Source: Pseudotabrizicola sediminis (GTDB lineage Bacteria > Pseudomonadota > Alphaproteobacteria > Rhodobacterales > Rhodobacteraceae). Taken from it: a DNA stretch of 64,000 nt. The translations under genes were made by a program, and so were the position numbers. The stretch is from NCBI RefSeq assembly GCF_004745575.1, contig NZ_RPEM01000003.1:248001-312000 (forward strand), read 5' to 3'. Shown here one piece after another: positions 21,151-28,156 of this stretch (positions are counted from its first letter, which is position 1; each line of letters opens with the position of its first letter). The notes beneath the pieces are model-generated. The model was not told where the DNA came from, ran no database searches, and saw only the letters and a program-made list of their open reading frames with translations.

Positions 21151-23430
21151 ATGGAAGAAGTGCGTCAGGACAATGCCCGTCAGGCGGCGCTGGATTATCA
21201 TGAATTCCCCAAGCCGGGAAAGCTGGAGATCCGCGCGACCAAGCCACTGGCCAATGGACGCGACCTGTCGCGCGCCTATTCCCCCGGCGTGGCCGAGGCC
21301 TGTCTTGAAATCAGGGCCGACCCGTCCACCGCGTCGCGCTACACCTCGCGCGGGAACCTTGTGGCGGTAGTCACCAACGGCACGGCGGTGCTGGGCCTTG
21401 GCAACATCGGGGCGCTGGCGTCCAAACCGGTGATGGAGGGCAAGGCGGTTCTGTTCAAGAAATTCGCCAACATCGACTGCTTTGACATCGAGCTGAACGA
21501 AGCCGACCCCGAAAAGCTGGCCGATATCGTCTGCGCGCTGGAGCCGACCTTCGGCGCCATCAATCTGGAAGACATCAAGGCCCCCGACTGTTTCATCGTC
21601 GAACAGCTGTGCCGCGAGCGGATGAACATCCCTGTATTCCACGACGACCAGCACGGCACCGCCATTGTGGTCGGCGCTGCCGCCACCAATGCGATGATCA
21701 TCGCGGGCAAGAGTTTTGACCAGATCCGGATCGTCTCCACCGGTGGGGGGGCTGCGGGCATCGCCTGCCTTGAGATGCTGGTCAAACTGGGCGTCCGGCG
21801 CGAGAATATCTGGCTCTGCGATCTGGAAGGGCTGGTCTACAAGGGCCGCACCGCGCAGATGTCCCCGCAGAAAGAGGCGTTTGCCCAAGGCACCACCCCC
21901 GCCACACTTGGCGATGTGATCGCGGGCGCAGACCTGTTCCTTGGCCTGTCCGGGCCCGGCGTGCTGACGCAGGACATGGTGGCCCGGATGGCCCCCAATC
22001 CGATCATCTTCGCGCTGGCCAACCCGAACCCGGAAATCCAGCCCGACCTTGCGCGCGAGGTTGCCCCCGGCGCCATCATCGCCACAGGCCGGTCTGACTT
22101 TCCCAATCAGGTCAACAATGTGCTGTGCTTTCCCTTCATCTTCCGCGGTGCGCTGGACGTGGGGGCCACCACGATCAACGACGAGATGAAGATCGCCTGC
22201 ATCGAAGGCATCGCCGCCCTCGCGCGCGCCACGACAAGCGCAGAGGCGGCGGCGGCCTACAGCGGCGAAAAGCTGTCGTTCGGGGCCGACTACCTGATTC
22301 CCAAGCCGTTCGACCCGCGGCTGATGGGCGTTGTGGCCAGTGCGGTGGCACGCGCCGCGATGGAAACCGGCGTGGCCACGCGGCCCCTGGCCGATCTGGA
22401 GGCCTACAAGGCAACGCTGGACGGATCGGTGTTCAAATCCGCCCTGCTGATGCGCCCGGTGTTCGAGGCCGCGCGGCACGCCGAGCGCAAGATCGTCTTT
22501 GCCGAAGGCGAGGATGAACGGGTGCTGCGCACCGCCAATGCGATGCTGGAAGAAACCACCGACCTGCCAATCCTGATCGGGCGGCCCGAAGTGGTGGAGG
22601 CGCGGTGTGAACGCGCCGGCCTGCCAATCCGTCCGGGCCGCGATTTCCATCTGGTGAACCCGGAAAACGACCCGCGCTACCGCGACTATTGGGGCACCTA
22701 TGCCGAGCTGATGGCGCGGCGCGGCGTGACGCCCGATATTGCCCGCGCGATCATGCGGACCAACACCACCGCGATTGCGGCGGTGATGGTGCACCGAGGC
22801 GAGGCCGACAGCATGATCTGCGGCACCTTCGGGCAGTATCTGTGGCATCTGGGCTATGTCCGTCAGGTGCTGGCGCGCAACGGCTTGCAGCCCGTCGCAG
22901 CGCTGTCGATGATGATTCTGGAAGACGGCCCGCTGTTCATCGCCGACACCCATGTGAATGCCGAGCCGACGCCAGAGCAGATCATGCAGACGGTGCTGGG
23001 GGCGGCGCGGCACGTGAAGCGCTTCGGTCTGGCCCCCAAGATCGCGCTGTGTACGCAAAGTCAGTTCGGCAACATGGACAATGAAAAGGCCCATCGGATG
23101 CGGGCGGCGCTGGAACTGCTGGACGCGCGCGAGCCGGATTTTGCCTATGAGGGCGAGATGAACATCGACGCCGCCCTCGACCAGTCCCTGCGCGACCGGC
23201 TTCTGGCGGGCGGGCGGTTTGATGGCCCGGCAAACGTGCTGGTCTTTGCTTCCGCCGACGCCGCCTCGGGCGTGCGCAACATCCTGAAAATGAAGGCCGG
23301 CGGGCTGGAGGTCGGGCCAATCCTGATGGGGATGGGCAACAAGGCCCATATCGTGACCCCGTCGATCACCGCCCGCGGCCTGCTGAACGTGTCCGCCATC
23401 GCAGGCACCCCTGTGGCGCATTACGGATAA
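21151..23430 (+). CDS. maeB: NADP-dependent malic enzyme with C-terminal phosphotransacetylase-like domain
   Basis: This 759-aa enzyme decarboxylates malate to pyruvate with NADP. Residues 1-130 form the malic N-terminal domain ([38 protein letters not shown]). About 160-390 form the NAD(P)-binding domain ([59 protein letters not shown]). About 430-759 form a PTA/PTB domain, which is regulatory in MaeB proteins. ATG 21151 follows GGGAGGCGAAA. It links C4 acids from propionyl-CoA assimilation to pyruvate. A hairpin (CCCCCTG/CAGCGGGGG) follows the stop at about 23442. Confidence 0.95.
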
Positions 23431-23571
23431 CACAGACTTCCCCCTGCGTAACAGCGGGGGGAGGTATTTTGGGTCAATCGGTTCACTCTTCAGTTGTAAC
23501 CGTTCTTTACCCTCTGATCCCCCGCTCATCGGTCTTCCGCCCTCCTGCGCTGTGCCCGGGCGGCACCCCAG

Positions 23572-23576
23572 GAAGC
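23572..23576. repeat. Target-site duplication, left copy (GAAGC)
   Basis: GAAGC directly precedes the TGTAGG end of the transposon; the identical GAAGC directly follows the other end at 27915-27919. Five-base duplications are what Tn7- and Tn5053-type transposases create. Confidence 0.9.
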
Positions 23577-23601
23577 TGTAGGTGGAACCATAGTTAGCCC
23601 A
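23577..23601 (+). repeat. Transposon terminal inverted repeat, left
   Basis: 25-bp end beginning TGTAGGTGGAA and ending CATAGTTAGCCCA. It differs from the reverse complement of the right end at only two positions (bases 12 and 21). Confidence 0.92.
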
Positions 23602-23679
23602 CTCCAGCCGCGACTCTCTTCACAACACACTGAAATACATATACTTTTCTGACGGCTAAACCCAATCTGTCCAAACTTT

Positions 23680-23690
23680 TGCCATTCTGG
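23680..23690 (+). repeat. Subterminal transposase-binding-type repeat, left
   Basis: TGCCATTCTGG lies 103 bp inside the left end and recurs in inverted orientation as CCAGAATGGCA at 27863-27873, 41 bp inside the right end. The flanking bases also agree, giving about 16 of 19 matches overall. Tn7/Tn5053 ends carry several such roughly 19-bp transposase sites. A second CCATT (23691-23695) follows. Confidence 0.6.
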
Positions 23691-23730
23691 CCATTAAAGT
23701 TTTACCATCGAAAGTTCGAAGCCAAGGCAA

Positions 23731-23757
23731 GAAAAAAGCCGCCCAATCGGGCGGCTT
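23731..23757 (-). terminator. Intrinsic terminator downstream of tniQ
   Basis: On the minus strand AAGCCGCCC-GATT-GGGCGGCTT is followed by TTTTTTC: a perfect 9-bp stem, tetraloop and T tract. It is 34 bp after the tniQ stop and would end the transposon operon before the left end. Confidence 0.9.
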
Positions 23758-23790
23758 CATAGCGTATAGGTCTGAATTATCTCGGTATTT

Positions 23791-25596
23791 TCAGGTCAGC
23801 GGTGCTCTTTTGTAGAATATCGCGGGCGGTTTGTGTTCGGCAAAAATCGGATGGATCCCCGTCTCTGACAGCTTCCGAAAGGTATCGGTTGGCCGGCGTC
23901 CTTCTGAGCGGCTGATCTCATCGATACTGACGTGATCACGCGTGAATTGCCGCACGTCGTTCAGGCTGACCAGCCAAGTCACTTTCCTGCCCTTCCGACG
24001 AAAGGAGCGCCGCAGCAGAAAGTCACCGTTTGCATCTGGATACCGGGACAGCAGGTCGATGTAGCTCGTCGGCGCATCGATGATCTTTGCTGCCTGGCTG
24101 GCAAAGATCGCCTCTGCACGATCCGTCTTGGTCGTAAGCTTGCCGACTTCACGTGGAGACGCTTTGACAGCCTGGAGACCGCTTTCCGACAGAACGCGCT
24201 CCACGCACTTGATCCTTTCAGACAAAATCAACTGGAGAAGGGCGGCAACAGGCAGGTCAAACTCATGCGCAATTGACCAAAGGTCGGACATTTCATCGCC
24301 CATCGTCGCAACGGGATCGGCCTTTTCGTAAATGTCAGACAGAAAGCTAAACAAGTTGCGAGGCCCCGAAAGAGCGGCCGAAGTTGTGTCATCACTCAAC
24401 TTGGCGCTAAGGCACAGCATGCCGGACCGAAGAAGCTCAAGGGCAACCCGCGACGAACAAGAAAGGGCGCGTGCGACATCAGATGGGTCTTCAGGCAGAC
24501 TTTCCTCTGACATCAGAATGGCCATTTCTGCGGCCTTGCTGTTCAGCGCGACCGCCTGAGGCAATGTATTGAGGATCTCCGCCTCAACCAAGCCAGACCC
24601 TTCCAGAGATCCCCGAACCGCATCACGGCTCAAGCCCGTCGCAAGTGCGAGCGACTTGATGCTGTGCACCCGGCGAACAGTGACCTTCTCCCCCAAAACA
24701 ACGGCGCCGGGATCGATAGGCATTGTCTCAAGAATGAAATCGCGCACGATACCTGCAATCTCTACACATTCCGGCTGAGTTACTCGGTCATTCAGCCATT
24801 TGTAGAGGATCCCAAATTTTGCAGTCGGGGTGGGTTCGCAGTTTTTGTCACGGCTTGCTGATAGAATTTCGGTCAACCCTGCGCGGATGCCGGCTGGTCC
24901 GCCTGCGATGAAAGGGAAGCCGACGCTTCCTGCGACAAAGAGATCGCACCGTGAGAGGCTTTTCATCGATGTATACTGACCGAACTTGAGGATTGCGCCG
25001 ATGATTTCCGAAACCCGCGAGATGACGTCGATTTGCTGGCCATCGATCCAACCAGAAGATGACGCCCCGGCCGCCCGCTGACGAAGGTGGTCCTCGAGAG
25101 GAGAGACATCCTCAATTTTTGACGCGTAGGCCTTTTTCACCGTTGGGAAGTCTTGCGAAACCCCAGCGGAAGAAATGACAGAATGGGGGAGCAAAAAGAC
25201 CGAGTGATCTACGCATGTCCGCACGGACGCCATCTGCCAGACCACCTTAGTGACTGGGTTGCCGTAGGGATCCCGGTTTTCTTGAGCGCAGATGGGGCAG
25301 TAGCCCCACTCACCAGGCCCAAAGAACGCCTTGTCGGTAGGCTCGCCACGAAACAACACCGTCGCGCTATCAGGCTGAATCAGCACGCCGGTTTTCAGAT
25401 CATCCGGCACGGCGCCAGTGATGTCCGAAAGCTGTTGAATATCGATGTCGTCAGCCACTACGAGCCCGCTTGGGGCAATTTTGATGATCCTCAGAAATTC
25501 CACCGCACCCATGTTTCCATGGGTGCGGGCGATCCGTTCGATGTAGGAGTAGAGGGACTCCCCGGGGGTAAATGGAAGGTGCGGAAGCAATGCCAT
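23791..25596 (-). CDS. tniQ: TniQ/TnsD-family transposition target-selector
   Basis: This 601-aa protein belongs to the TniQ family, which in Tn7/Tn5053-type elements binds DNA and directs the AAA+ regulator and transposase to a target. The N-terminus LPFTPGESLYSYIERIARTHG is the canonical TniQ opening (P-x-x-x-E-S-L-x-S/Y-W/Y). A zinc finger follows, with C100 and C103 (YCPIC) and C128/H131 (RTCVDH). The long C-terminal half holds helix-turn-helix-like segments, as in large TnsD-type members. ATG 25596 is chosen for GGAGGGG 6 bp upstream. It starts 13 bp after the tniB-remnant stop. The gene looks intact. Confidence 0.88.
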   Translation of the reverse strand: MALLPHLPFTPGESLYSYIERIARTHGNMGAVEFLRIIKIAPSGLVVADDIDIQQLSDITGAVPDDLKTGVLIQPDSATVLFRGEPTDKAFFGPGEWGYCPICAQENRDPYGNPVTKVVWQMASVRTCVDHSVFLLPHSVISSAGVSQDFPTVKKAYASKIEDVSPLEDHLRQRAAGASSSGWIDGQQIDVISRVSEIIGAILKFGQYTSMKSLSRCDLFVAGSVGFPFIAGGPAGIRAGLTEILSASRDKNCEPTPTAKFGILYKWLNDRVTQPECVEIAGIVRDFILETMPIDPGAVVLGEKVTVRRVHSIKSLALATGLSRDAVRGSLEGSGLVEAEILNTLPQAVALNSKAAEMAILMSEESLPEDPSDVARALSCSSRVALELLRSGMLCLSAKLSDDTTSAALSGPRNLFSFLSDIYEKADPVATMGDEMSDLWSIAHEFDLPVAALLQLILSERIKCVERVLSESGLQAVKASPREVGKLTTKTDRAEAIFASQAAKIIDAPTSYIDLLSRYPDANGDFLLRRSFRRKGRKVTWLVSLNDVRQFTRDHVSIDEISRSEGRRPTDTFRKLSETGIHPIFAEHKPPAIFYKRAPLT

Positions 25597-25609
25597 ATCT
25601 GCCCCTCCT

Positions 25610-25873
25610 TCACGCAGCACGGCGCTTCTTGCGACGCCGACCGTCGGGCTCTTCTTCCAAGCGCTTGGAACCATTCAGAGGCACAATCCGCCAGTCTGCG
25701 GCTGCAAACACGTTCAGGTCCCATTTGACACCTTCGCGAATGCCCCACACTTCCGCAAAATGGTCGCGGGAAAGCTGGTCGTCTTCGAGGGAAAGCGCGA
25801 GATCAATTGCTTGAATGGTGGTCTCAGCAACGAGACCAAAACGACCGCGCGAGCCGTAAATCAAGCGTTCCCA
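25610..25873 (-). pseudogene. tniB: 3' remnant of tniB (AAA+ transposition regulator)
   Basis: About 86 codons remain in frame, from WERLIYGSRGRFGLVAETTI to a TGA at 25610. The pattern RLI-x-G-x-x-GRFGL ... AIDLAL ... LSRDHFAEVWGIREGVKWDLNVFAAADW is the C-terminal end of TniB-type ATPases (lid helices and N-V-F-x-A-x-D-W tail). The Walker A/B part is missing, and the fragment has no start codon or ribosome site of its own in that frame. It abuts, in another frame, the end of the DUF6634-like ORF, so a deletion joined the two. The order tniB-tniQ with a 13-bp gap is the ancestral one. Confidence 0.7.
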
Positions 25874-26286
25874 GACGGATGAATTTGAAAATAGGGCGAT
25901 GTCGCGATGTAGCGCTGGTCTCCGAGACGCGGATGCCCAGAAACTTGCCCGAAAAGGTGAGGATATGCGCCCAGATGAACAGCGCACCATTCAGAAAGAA
26001 CTGGTGCATCTTCGAGGATCGATTCCGTCGGCAAAATCGAGCTGAGGCCCTTAACATGTGCAAGAAATTCTTCAAGCTGTTCGTGCCAGTCTGGGCGATG
26101 GGTCTGCAGCCATGTAAGAGCCATTTCCTGCTGAAATTGGCGAAACATGCCGGTCATAGCTCGATCGGCGTCAAGCGCTGCCAGCAGGTCATCGTCGCCT
26201 CTTGATCGCCCCAGAAGTTCCTTAAGGTTTTCGCTGCGTCCAAGGAAAGGTCTGCGGGGATCCTGATAGGACATCGAATTCATCAT
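25861..26286 (-). CDS. DUF6634-like protein, C-terminally truncated
   Basis: This is a 141-aa protein. Its C-terminal half (PTESILEDAPVLSEWCAVHLG, then LFGQVSGHPRLGDQRYIATSPYFQIHPSG) follows the pattern I recall for DUF6634: dAPxLxxW, G-x-V-x-GHPRL, I-x-TSP. The family then normally ends in roughly W-A-R-T-x-S-R-x-Y-R-L-G, which is absent here: translation stops after HPSGNA where sequence of the tniB remnant begins. ATG 26286 is supported by GAGGA 5 bp upstream, overlapping the AAA+ stop region. Function of the family is unknown; this copy may be non-functional. Confidence 0.6.
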   Translation of the reverse strand: MMNSMSYQDPRRPFLGRSENLKELLGRSRGDDDLLAALDADRAMTGMFRQFQQEMALTWLQTHRPDWHEQLEEFLAHVKGLSSILPTESILEDAPVLSEWCAVHLGAYPHLFGQVSGHPRLGDQRYIATSPYFQIHPSGNA

Positions 26287-26294
26287 AGTCTTCC

Positions 26295-27410
26295 TCACTG
26301 AAAAATTGGTCTGCTCTCTAGGTCCTGAGCCCGGGCCAACATCCGCGAGACGTCGCGCAAACTGATGCGGCGGTTCAAGCGGTCTTGTGCATGGATCAAA
26401 GCGACGATGATCGCCTCAATCGATGCGTCGGAAAGAGAAAGCTCTCTGCCGCGGCGGATCGCAAAGTCTTGGAGCTCGAGGGGTGTCAACGCGCGGACGT
26501 GCACCACAGTGCAGCGGCTTTTGACTGTCGGCTGCACCAGATCGACGTCGTTGGATGTGAAAATCCAAGACAAGTGCGACATGTCGAAAGAGACGCGGTA
26601 GAACGGGCATTCCCACCGCCGCGCGGACTCTGGCTCAAGCAGCGAGAGCAGCGCATCGTAGAATGAAAAGGCCGTGCCCTTTTTCGACTCCGCTGACTTT
26701 GCTTTGCAGATCTCGTCGACGACGACGATGCCGTTCGCCATCCGACTTTCCAAGATCATCTCAACGGGACGGCCAGGTTGTGCTGATCCCCATCCCCGTT
26801 CAAGGCCGACTATGCTGAAGCCGGGGCTTCCAGTGGATGCGTCTAGTCCAACAGAGGGGACTGAAACAAGCTCAGCAAAACGCTTTGCCAAGCGGGTCTT
26901 CCCAACCCCAGGTGGGCCGTTGATGATAAGTGGGGAAATCTTGATAGGCTCCCCCAGACGTGCAGATCTCCGCAGTGAATGCCAAAGAACCTCTGTCGCT
27001 GAAGCCAGCCATGGCGCCTCTTGATGGAGGCGCGCGGCCACTTCATCTGCCCAGGCTTCGCTCTTTGCCACGGCAACAGGGATGTCTCCCCGTGCAGCCT
27101 GAAGCTTTGTGATTTCGGTTTTGCTCAGGTGCGAAGTTGCGGACGCGGCAGCGCGCCGTGAGAACAGTTTTTCAACGCGCGCACGGATACGCTCTTCATC
27201 TACTCTCTTGAGAAGGGCTTCATGTTCGAGACGAGCGATTTCGTCGCCATTTGCAACAGTTGACACCTCTGAAAAGCGCTTCCCGTGGGCAGCGCGCGCC
27301 AGCCTATCAATCCGACGGTCAAACAGAAAATCTCGTAATCTGCGGCGGACCTTCTCGGGATCCCCGATCTCCTTCTGCTCAATGAGCTGGATCACTTTCA
27401 GTCTTTTCAC
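26295..27410 (-). CDS. Lon-like AAA+ ATPase (transposon cassette)
   Basis: This is a 371-aa protein. Residues 1-120 are charged and helical with probable coiled coil (EARLEHEALLKRVDEERIRARVEKLF region). The AAA+ core follows, with Walker A GPPGVGKT at 165-172, Walker B IVVVDEI at 228-234, sensor-1 WIFTSND and lid helices ending RISLRDVSRMLARAQ. The pattern resembles Lon/ClpX-type remodellers; no protease domain is present. The start is GTG 27410, with AAGGAG 7 bp upstream and GTGA overlapping the stop of the preceding small ORF. It is not TniB, whose remnant lies downstream. Role (cargo, defence or transposition accessory) is unknown. Confidence 0.75.
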   Translation of the reverse strand: MKRLKVIQLIEQKEIGDPEKVRRRLRDFLFDRRIDRLARAAHGKRFSEVSTVANGDEIARLEHEALLKRVDEERIRARVEKLFSRRAAASATSHLSKTEITKLQAARGDIPVAVAKSEAWADEVAARLHQEAPWLASATEVLWHSLRRSARLGEPIKISPLIINGPPGVGKTRLAKRFAELVSVPSVGLDASTGSPGFSIVGLERGWGSAQPGRPVEMILESRMANGIVVVDEICKAKSAESKKGTAFSFYDALLSLLEPESARRWECPFYRVSFDMSHLSWIFTSNDVDLVQPTVKSRCTVVHVRALTPLELQDFAIRRGRELSLSDASIEAIIVALIHAQDRLNRRISLRDVSRMLARAQDLESRPIFQ

Positions 27411-27637
27411 AATGCGTCTCCTTCCGGTGCGAGCTGGGCTCGACGGGTGTTGGGGTTCCATTTCGATGGCTGAAACCCCGGACCGCTGATGCCGATCTTC
27501 CTCTGATCGGGTGTCATCATCAGAGTCGCGCTTCTTCGCATCCAATTCTGCTGAACAGCGAAAAGGCGGCGCGATAGAGCATCGTGGCTCGGGCGCGGAT
27601 CGAGAAGGTGAGCATTCATGAACTTGAACGATGGCAT
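27407..27637 (-). CDS. Unknown 76-aa protein, first gene of transposon operon
   Basis: A small basic protein from MPSFKFMNAHLL to APEGDAL. ATG 27637 is preceded by AAAGGA at 7 bp. The stop overlaps the AAA+ start as GTGA, so the two are translationally coupled, which argues that it is real. I recognise no domain; the region QNWMRRSATLMMTPDQRKIGISGPGF is helical then Gly/Pro-rich. Upstream, 27638-27914 contains only the transposon end; a weak minus-strand promoter candidate (TTGACG near 27745) can be seen. Confidence 0.55.
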   Translation of the reverse strand: MPSFKFMNAHLLDPRPSHDALSRRLFAVQQNWMRRSATLMMTPDQRKIGISGPGFQPSKWNPNTRRAQLAPEGDAL

Positions 27638-27862
27638 AACAGGTCCTTTCACCAAAGCCTGACCGCCAAGGTGGCGCGAGCTATGATGCTGTTTTCATTG
27701 TGGAAAAATTTGACGTGAGGGGAGGATGCCTGAGCCAAAATGCTCCGTCAACCGGCCCAGAACGACCCAAACGGGTCATCATCCTGAGTTCGTGGCCGAA
27801 AATGGCGCTCTCACAGACCTAATGAAAACAATGGCTTGACGGTCTCTGGCAAATTTATGCGT

Positions 27863-27873
27863 CCAGAATGGCA
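27863..27873 (-). repeat. Subterminal transposase-binding-type repeat, right
   Basis: CCAGAATGGCA is the inverse of the left-end TGCCATTCTGG (23680-23690). Further AATGGC cores at 27830-27835 and 27801-27806 suggest three sites at this end, a left/right asymmetry of the kind seen in Tn7-like ends. Confidence 0.55.
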
Positions 27874-27889
27874 CCAATTTGCCCCGAAA

Positions 27890-27914
27890 TGGGATAACTA
27901 TGCTTCCACCTACA
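27890..27914 (-). repeat. Transposon terminal inverted repeat, right
   Basis: Reverse complement begins TGTAGGTGGAA and matches the left end at 23 of 25 positions. GAAGC follows immediately outside. Confidence 0.92.
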
Positions 27915-27919
27915 GAAGC
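27915..27919. repeat. Target-site duplication, right copy (GAAGC)
   Basis: Identical to 23572-23576, directly adjoining the right end of the transposon. Confidence 0.9.
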
Positions 27920-27966
27920 GCCGGGCAGCGGTGCGGCAGAAGATTCGCAAGCGGCAACTGCACTAA

Positions 27967-28055
27967 TTTGCAAAGCTGACTGGGATTGTCGGTTTTATTG
28001 CCATATTCCCGCTGTTTGCAAAACTTTGCACCCCAAACTGGCCCATTTCTGCAAA
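27967..28055 (+). promoter_or_regulatory. TTTGCAAA operator cluster (PccR/ScfR-type) upstream of prpE
   Basis: Perfect TTTGCAAA palindromes lie at 27967-27974 and 28015-28022; the second is followed after 2 bases by TTTGCACC (28025-28032). A further TCTGCAAA lies at 28048-28055. Paired TTTGCAAA is, to my knowledge, the site of PccR, the propionyl-CoA-responsive regulator of Rhodobacter sphaeroides (RamB/MccR family). Position 100-190 bp before a propionyl-CoA synthetase fits that role. The spacing here (2 bases between the pair) differs from the 4 bases I recall. Confidence 0.6.
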
Positions 28056-28156
28056 CATAATGTCGCACCCCGCCCACTGTCCGGCGGTAACATTGTTGCG
28101 TGCTTGGCCCGCGATGCCGTAACACAAACCCCAAGCGTTGGGAGGAGGCGCGCAGA

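Follow-up and report, generated by a model that had tools for sequence, protein, structure and literature searches.

The locus between maeB and prpE of Pseudotabrizicola sediminis raises the question of how a segment with the intact ends of a transposon came to lie there without a transposase. The window (64,000 nucleotides, positions 248,001 to 312,000 of contig NZ_RPEM01000003.1) contains this element as a stretch of 4,338 bp, 23577-27914, or 23572-27919 when both GAAGC duplications are counted. The tniQ-side end, TGTAGGTGGAACCATAGTTAGCCCA, and the reverse complement of 27890-27914, TGTAGGTGGAAGCATAGTTATCCCA, are identical at 23 of 25 positions. The regions were scanned for TG...CA ends that share an exact 5-bp flank, with 13/20 end matches as the minimum. 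The true pair reached 19/20, while 60 shuffles of both end regions that preserved base composition all stayed under that minimum. The 25-bp inverted ends with GAAGC outside both, described earlier from the letters of the DNA (the sequence-only reading), were therefore borne out, and the element is a real, precisely bounded transposon. It retains three minus-strand genes, which encode a Lon-type AAA+ ATPase, a DUF6634-type protein and TniQ (Table 1). Additionally, CCATTCTGG / CCATTTCGG are found near both ends, but the loose motif has 31 occurrences in the window; a check for TnsB-binding repeats reported no array at the tniQ end. There are no cas genes among the five scanned ORFs of the element and no regularly spaced repeats in 23400-28100, which sets it apart from CRISPR-associated transposons.

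Table 1. Features of the maeB-prpE element, in window coordinates.
Feature	Position	Strand	Remarks
Target-site duplication GAAGC, tniQ side	23572-23576		141 bp past maeB stop
Terminal inverted repeat, 25 bp, tniQ-side end	23577-23601	+	
Subterminal CCATTCTGG, candidate TnsB-site core (putative function)	23682-23690	+	Inverted match to 27863-27881
tniQ, 598 codons, open	23791-25587	-	PF06527 E 6e-17; PADLOC TniQ E 3e-18; best-scoring relative 28% identical
tnsC/tniB remnant immediately upstream of tniQ: final ~88 codons with stop	25610-25882	-	Ketogulonicigenium vulgare TniB
Truncated DUF6634-type gene, 145 aa against 183 aa in L006	25861-26298	-	PF20339 E 1e-4, below cut-off; L006 E 5e-12
Deletion junction	25869-25882		DUF6634 homology stops at 25869, tnsC frame already reading through
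Block 81-84% identical to the nrdJ-linked AAA+/DUF6634 locus in L005 and L006, from two genomes of the genus	25869-27472	-	
Lon-type AAA+ ATPase of 371 aa; frame open; no match to a protease domain	26295-27410	-	PF00004; lon model; PDB Lon chains
AAA+-side end region	27473-27889		No match in nrdJ loci; CCATTCTGG at 27863-27871, CCATTTCGG at 27884-27892
Terminal inverted repeat, 25 bp, AAA+-side end	27890-27914	-	
Target-site duplication GAAGC, prpE side	27915-27919		

The flanks and relatives without the element support that the segment was inserted and is not ancestral. In 15 other genomes of the genus we obtained 13 usable maeB loci (L082-L094), and both flanks were found within the locus in 10 of them. 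Seven of these 10 have a short maeB-prpE spacer (214-396 bp) without the element, and spacers of 387 bp (L085) and 396 bp (L086) compare with 385 bp for the window minus the element; in the other three the spacer measures 1.3-1.5 kb. The three loci with one flank, where maeB and prpE were placed by the positions of matches only and not by identities, show a 1.6-kb gap (G135), prpE on the opposite strand (G304) and a contig with no prpE (G308). Furthermore, when the complete element was used as a DNA query, six other genomes of the genus matched in part and none in full, two over the AAA+/DUF6634 block (G135, G307) and four over shorter pieces (G295, G296, G299, G300). An ancestral segment, the alternative raised by the sequence-only reading, is thus contradicted by 7/13 same-genus loci. 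That reading also proposed a look for empty sites lacking one GAAGC: short spacers without the element are present, but the single GAAGC is unreadable in them because the spacer is too diverged. About 1-1.4 kb of extra sequence lies between maeB and prpE in four other genomes of the genus (L082, L083, L094 and L097), so this gap is prone to change.

The class of the transposon can be approached through tniQ, which is intact and encodes a zinc finger (CxxC...CxxH, read by eye) as had been noted before. TniQ matches were present in 56 of 295 family genomes including the host, whose single TniQ is the element's own, and Tn7-like transposons of this kind are found widely in Rhodobacterales. The sampled relatives are distant, with long matches at about 20-33% identity. 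We examined 20 relative loci, namely those of the 19 top-ranking TniQ matches outside the host and one from the same genus. TniB and TnsB matches lie beside TniQ in every case, the TnsB match of L055 being a short stretch only, and a TnsA-type gene lies upstream in 17, all but L044, L052 and L055. The gene order of the relatives is TnsA-type, Mu-type TnsB, TniB/TnsC, TniQ. A profile of 20 of the upstream genes had Tn7 TnsA as its two best PDB matches (whole-sequence E 2e-4), a match made up of two collinear stretches neither of which is significant by itself; with single sequences, Pfam gave E 0.023 for one and no TnsA match for five others. The upstream gene of the relatives therefore looks like TnsA.

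Tn5053/Tn402-type transposons (tniA-tniB-tniQ-tniR) have 25-bp ends, a 5-bp duplication, and TniQ and TniB-type genes. The element is like them in all these respects and unlike them in that its relatives carry a TnsA-type gene and that no resolvase was seen among its five scanned ORFs. With Tn7 and Tn7-like elements (tnsABC plus tniQ/tnsD) it shares the TGT...ACA ends, the 5-bp duplication, a TniQ/TnsD protein and, in its relatives, the tnsA-tnsB-tnsC-tniQ order, whereas here tnsA, tnsB and most of tnsC are deleted and TniQ is far from the sampled relatives. Because the relatives encode a TnsA-type gene, an assignment as Tn7-like fits better than one as Tn5053-type. The earlier placement in the Tn7/Tn5053 superfamily, as a bounded element minus its transposase, stands and is narrowed by this assignment. 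No TnsB (rve, Mu-transpos_C) was found inside the element, and of the TnsC AAA+ regulator only the C-terminal ~88 codons are left. The element is hence a derivative and not a functional Tn7-like member, since TnsB is missing both from it and, with one query and no positive control, from the genome.

The remnant upstream of tniQ indicates how the transposase was lost. It aligns with residues 246-331 of the 335 residues of K. vulgare TniB (49% identity over 88 aa). Full-length tnsA, tnsB and tnsC/tniB, and likewise tniA, were not found inside the element, in line with the earlier statement that tniA and tnsB are absent; a loss of tniA/tniB, one of the two alternatives offered there, holds for the complete genes, but the C-terminal part of tniB persists at 25610-25882. 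On the other side of the junction, the homology of the DUF6634-type gene to L006 is unbroken up to 25869, a position within the stretch encoding the first tnsC residues, so that a few bases of microhomology may have been involved. The truncation of this gene removes its C-terminal WARTxSRxYxLG, a stretch present in relatives; a literature search on DUF6634 returned no paper. A single deletion inside the element is the best explanation for the loss of the transposase. In this regard, a single-deletion origin is plausible because the same-genus locus L062 has an AAA+ gene directly upstream of tnsA-tnsB-tnsC-tniQ. Internally deleted transposons generally keep their ends and lose the transposase, as here, but this one has retained tniQ.

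The ends were then of interest as a marker of other copies. They were searched in 295 family and 390 order genomes, overlapping sets that amount to 587 distinct genomes (295 plus 292 new) and are mostly samples and not all species, and the pair was found in the host only, in one copy (1/587). Genome G455 has two end matches with 3 mismatches, both inside ORFs (392 and 783 aa). A third 11-mer end match in the host is at chance level, a reversed-pattern control also giving three. The ends had 0 exact matches in viral contigs, and the tniQ half of the element had no second copy in plasmids and phages. The searches also revealed no complete sibling, whether by shared ends or by a close TniQ, so the deleted content is deduced from distant relatives. 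These data do not support the non-autonomous family, mobilised by a related resident element, that the sequence-only reading had put forward, and the second copy of the ends on which that proposal depended was absent from the searched set. As to a resident element supplying tniA/tniB, the K. vulgare TnsB query, which matches TnsB in many relative loci (tblastn), matched nothing in the host genome, a search that had no positive control. The element is probably unable to move alone, and its movement would presumably require a TnsB that binds these ends, together with its TnsA and TnsC partners, to be provided in trans.

In addition, we compared the element with bounded Tn7-like elements in relatives. 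Three plasmid elements have exact 5-bp target-site duplications: a 26.1-kb element on K. vulgare plasmid 2 (ends 17/20, best of 60 shuffles 0), a 32.2-kb element on Paracoccus aminovorans plasmid IV (17/20, best of 60 shuffles 15) and a 12.4-kb element on Thioclava GXIMD4216 p3 (15/20, shuffles 14, just above the control). They resemble the element of the window in their ends and duplication and in an AAA+ gene far from tniQ, towards the opposite end, and the first two also have DUF6634; unlike it, they have annotated TnsB-, TniB/TnsC- and TniQ-type genes and cargo such as restriction-type or arsenic genes. The K. vulgare ends begin TGA, whereas those in the window begin TGT. In a strict end and duplication scan of 24 relative loci no pair was convincing; the two that came up matched at 16/22 and began with TGC. 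A scan of larger regions found pairs above shuffles in three of six loci, with G259 at control level and none in G123 and G150; under a relaxed scan G123 showed an exact duplication with just 9/16 end matches. No convincing ends were found in P. ferrooxidans and L062.

The AAA+ gene and its DUF6634 neighbour recur in other contexts. The lon model matches the AAA+ protein with E 5e-16, far below the model cut-off, and PDB Lon chains with E down to 7e-12; a comparison with known defence genes in PADLOC gave nothing beyond weak similarity near the ATP-binding site (best E 8e-4). Its closest copies (89-90% identical in amino acids, 81-84% in DNA) lie directly after nrdJ, without tniQ, in two same-genus genomes. 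The copy of Pseudotabrizicola formosa (L006:6046-7158, G135:C1) is decaying, as its 371-residue frame is interrupted by a stop at residue 282, whereas the frame in L005 is open. Among 20 regions around strong AAA+ matches, nrdJ adjoins in nine and IS66-type tnpA-tnpB in five. Members of the AAA+ family lie behind IS66-type tnpA-tnpB in L148, L149, L150, L151, L157 and L171; in three of these loci (L148, L157 and L171) a tnpC-type gene follows far downstream. A module shared by two unrelated element types, Tn7-like and IS66-type, is possible. When 38 strong AAA+ matches (E <= 3e-40, own genome excluded) were compared with 74 TniQ rows (own and six fragment rows excluded), 8/38 lay within 20 kb and 10/38 within 40 kb of TniQ, against about 0.4 and 0.9 by random placement; the remaining 28 have no TniQ within 40 kb, and the excess may reflect generally mobile regions. 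Counter-examples to a position opposite tniQ are L053, where the AAA+ gene lies past tniQ, and P. ferrooxidans, where it lies past a tnsC-type gene. Across L177, L179, L006 and the window (27410-27472), the start of the AAA+ gene is joined to three different leader or end regions, as if elements had exchanged the gene at a point shortly before its start.

We hold with high confidence that a Tn7-like transposon was inserted at maeB-prpE and was gutted, before or after the insertion, by a single internal deletion. Judged from distant relatives, the parental element would have had the order end, AAA+, DUF6634, perhaps cargo, tnsA, tnsB, tnsC, tniQ, end. Transposition into the maeB-prpE gap would have produced the 5-bp duplication, and one deletion reaching from the C-terminal part of the DUF6634 gene to about codon 245 of tnsC, whose junction is present in the DNA, would have taken tnsA, tnsB and most of tnsC out of this deduced order and left both ends, tniQ and the AAA+ gene. 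The deletion may have come before or after the insertion. Consequently, from the earlier choice between movement in trans and loss of tniA/tniB after insertion, the loss is backed by the tnsC remnant but not its order relative to the insertion. That the element was already deleted when it was inserted, and was moved by the TnsABC of another element, is a sub-case with the other order that we consider possible but doubtful. Intact ends and duplication and an open tniQ are what a mobilisable mini-element would show, and Tn7-like elements are common in the family; however, there is a single copy, the TnsB search of the genome, which had no positive control, found nothing, the other 586 genomes searched lack the end pair apart from the matches in G455, and a deletion after insertion equally predicts intact ends. 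Past movement in trans is therefore possible but unneeded.

Capture by recombination of the AAA+/DUF6634 block from an nrdJ-associated element, replacing tnsA-tnsB-tnsC in one event, has to be weighed because this block matches nrdJ-locus DNA and the adjoining 442-bp end region does not. The block has unrelated sequence on both sides, and in L177 and L179 the same AAA+ gene start is preceded by another leader. Nevertheless, several Tn7-like elements already have an AAA+ gene close to their far end, so that capture is unneeded, and the non-coding end sequences may have diverged faster; we regard this origin as unlikely. It is very improbable that TniQ, AAA+ and DUF6634 make up a purposeful minimal system that functions without tnsABC: the TniQ and AAA+ frames are open, but tnsC is a mere remnant, the DUF6634-type gene has lost its C-terminal motif, and the loci compared contain no second case of the three-gene arrangement. 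An assembly chimera at the deletion junction seems just as improbable. The assembly is in 86 contigs, but the junction is far from the ends of its contig, C23 (position about 273.9 kb), and the same TnsB search, which had no positive control, revealed nothing elsewhere in the genome to misjoin. The gutted Tn7-like transposon looks like a decayed representative of an established transposon group and not like the founder of a new family.

Lastly, the nrdJ loci pointed to a candidate attachment site, although the element of the window itself sits between maeB and prpE and not at nrdJ. A TGT..AC end starts 18-27 bp past the nrdJ stop in nine of 14 nrdJ-AAA+ loci (L005, L006, L008, L010, L156 and L159-L162), the other five having no match, and across the window 1.9% of 60-bp steps contain the motif; as it was written after viewing the sequences and the loci are related, 9/14 is a description and not an independent test. 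By reason of these ends nrdJ looks like an attachment site of Tn7-like elements. Similar ends past nrdJ were seen by eye in same-genus L176, L177 and L179. On Roseovarius TE539 contig33 (L008:5518, L012:5508-5518), AACAG precedes the nrdJ end and also follows an inverted end (12/20) just past tniQ, ~23 kb off, and 0/500 shuffles of the 660 bases past tniQ reached 12/20 with the AACAG duplication. A second copy of the first end begins 10 bp further, so two elements seem to lie in tandem there. By eye, the genes after the AAA+ gene of this nrdJ-inserted element resemble a QatABCD defence set. Reports of nrdJ as a Tn7-like attachment site were not found in the literature searched: the main text of PMC10293859 contains neither 'nrdJ' nor 'ribonucle', and that of PMC8649781 no 'nrd'. 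A wider hypothesis, which we advance tentatively, is that the Lon-type AAA+ gene with DUF6634, often with a metallophosphoesterase, could be a portable module near one end of Tn7-like and IS66-like elements, that one Rhodobacterales Tn7-like lineage could use the nrdJ 3' end as its attachment site, and that the element of the window could be a natural mini-transposon of this group, which keeps ends, AAA+ and target selector and might move in trans.

The element shows a route by which a Tn7-like transposon decays down to its ends plus tniQ. The published survey PMC8649781 called elements only with a TnsB hit, and elements like this one would therefore have been missed there. The element also led to nrdJ as a candidate attachment site and to a recurring, uncharacterised AAA+/DUF6634 module with a testable function, and this module and the nrdJ site are more interesting than the element's own decay.
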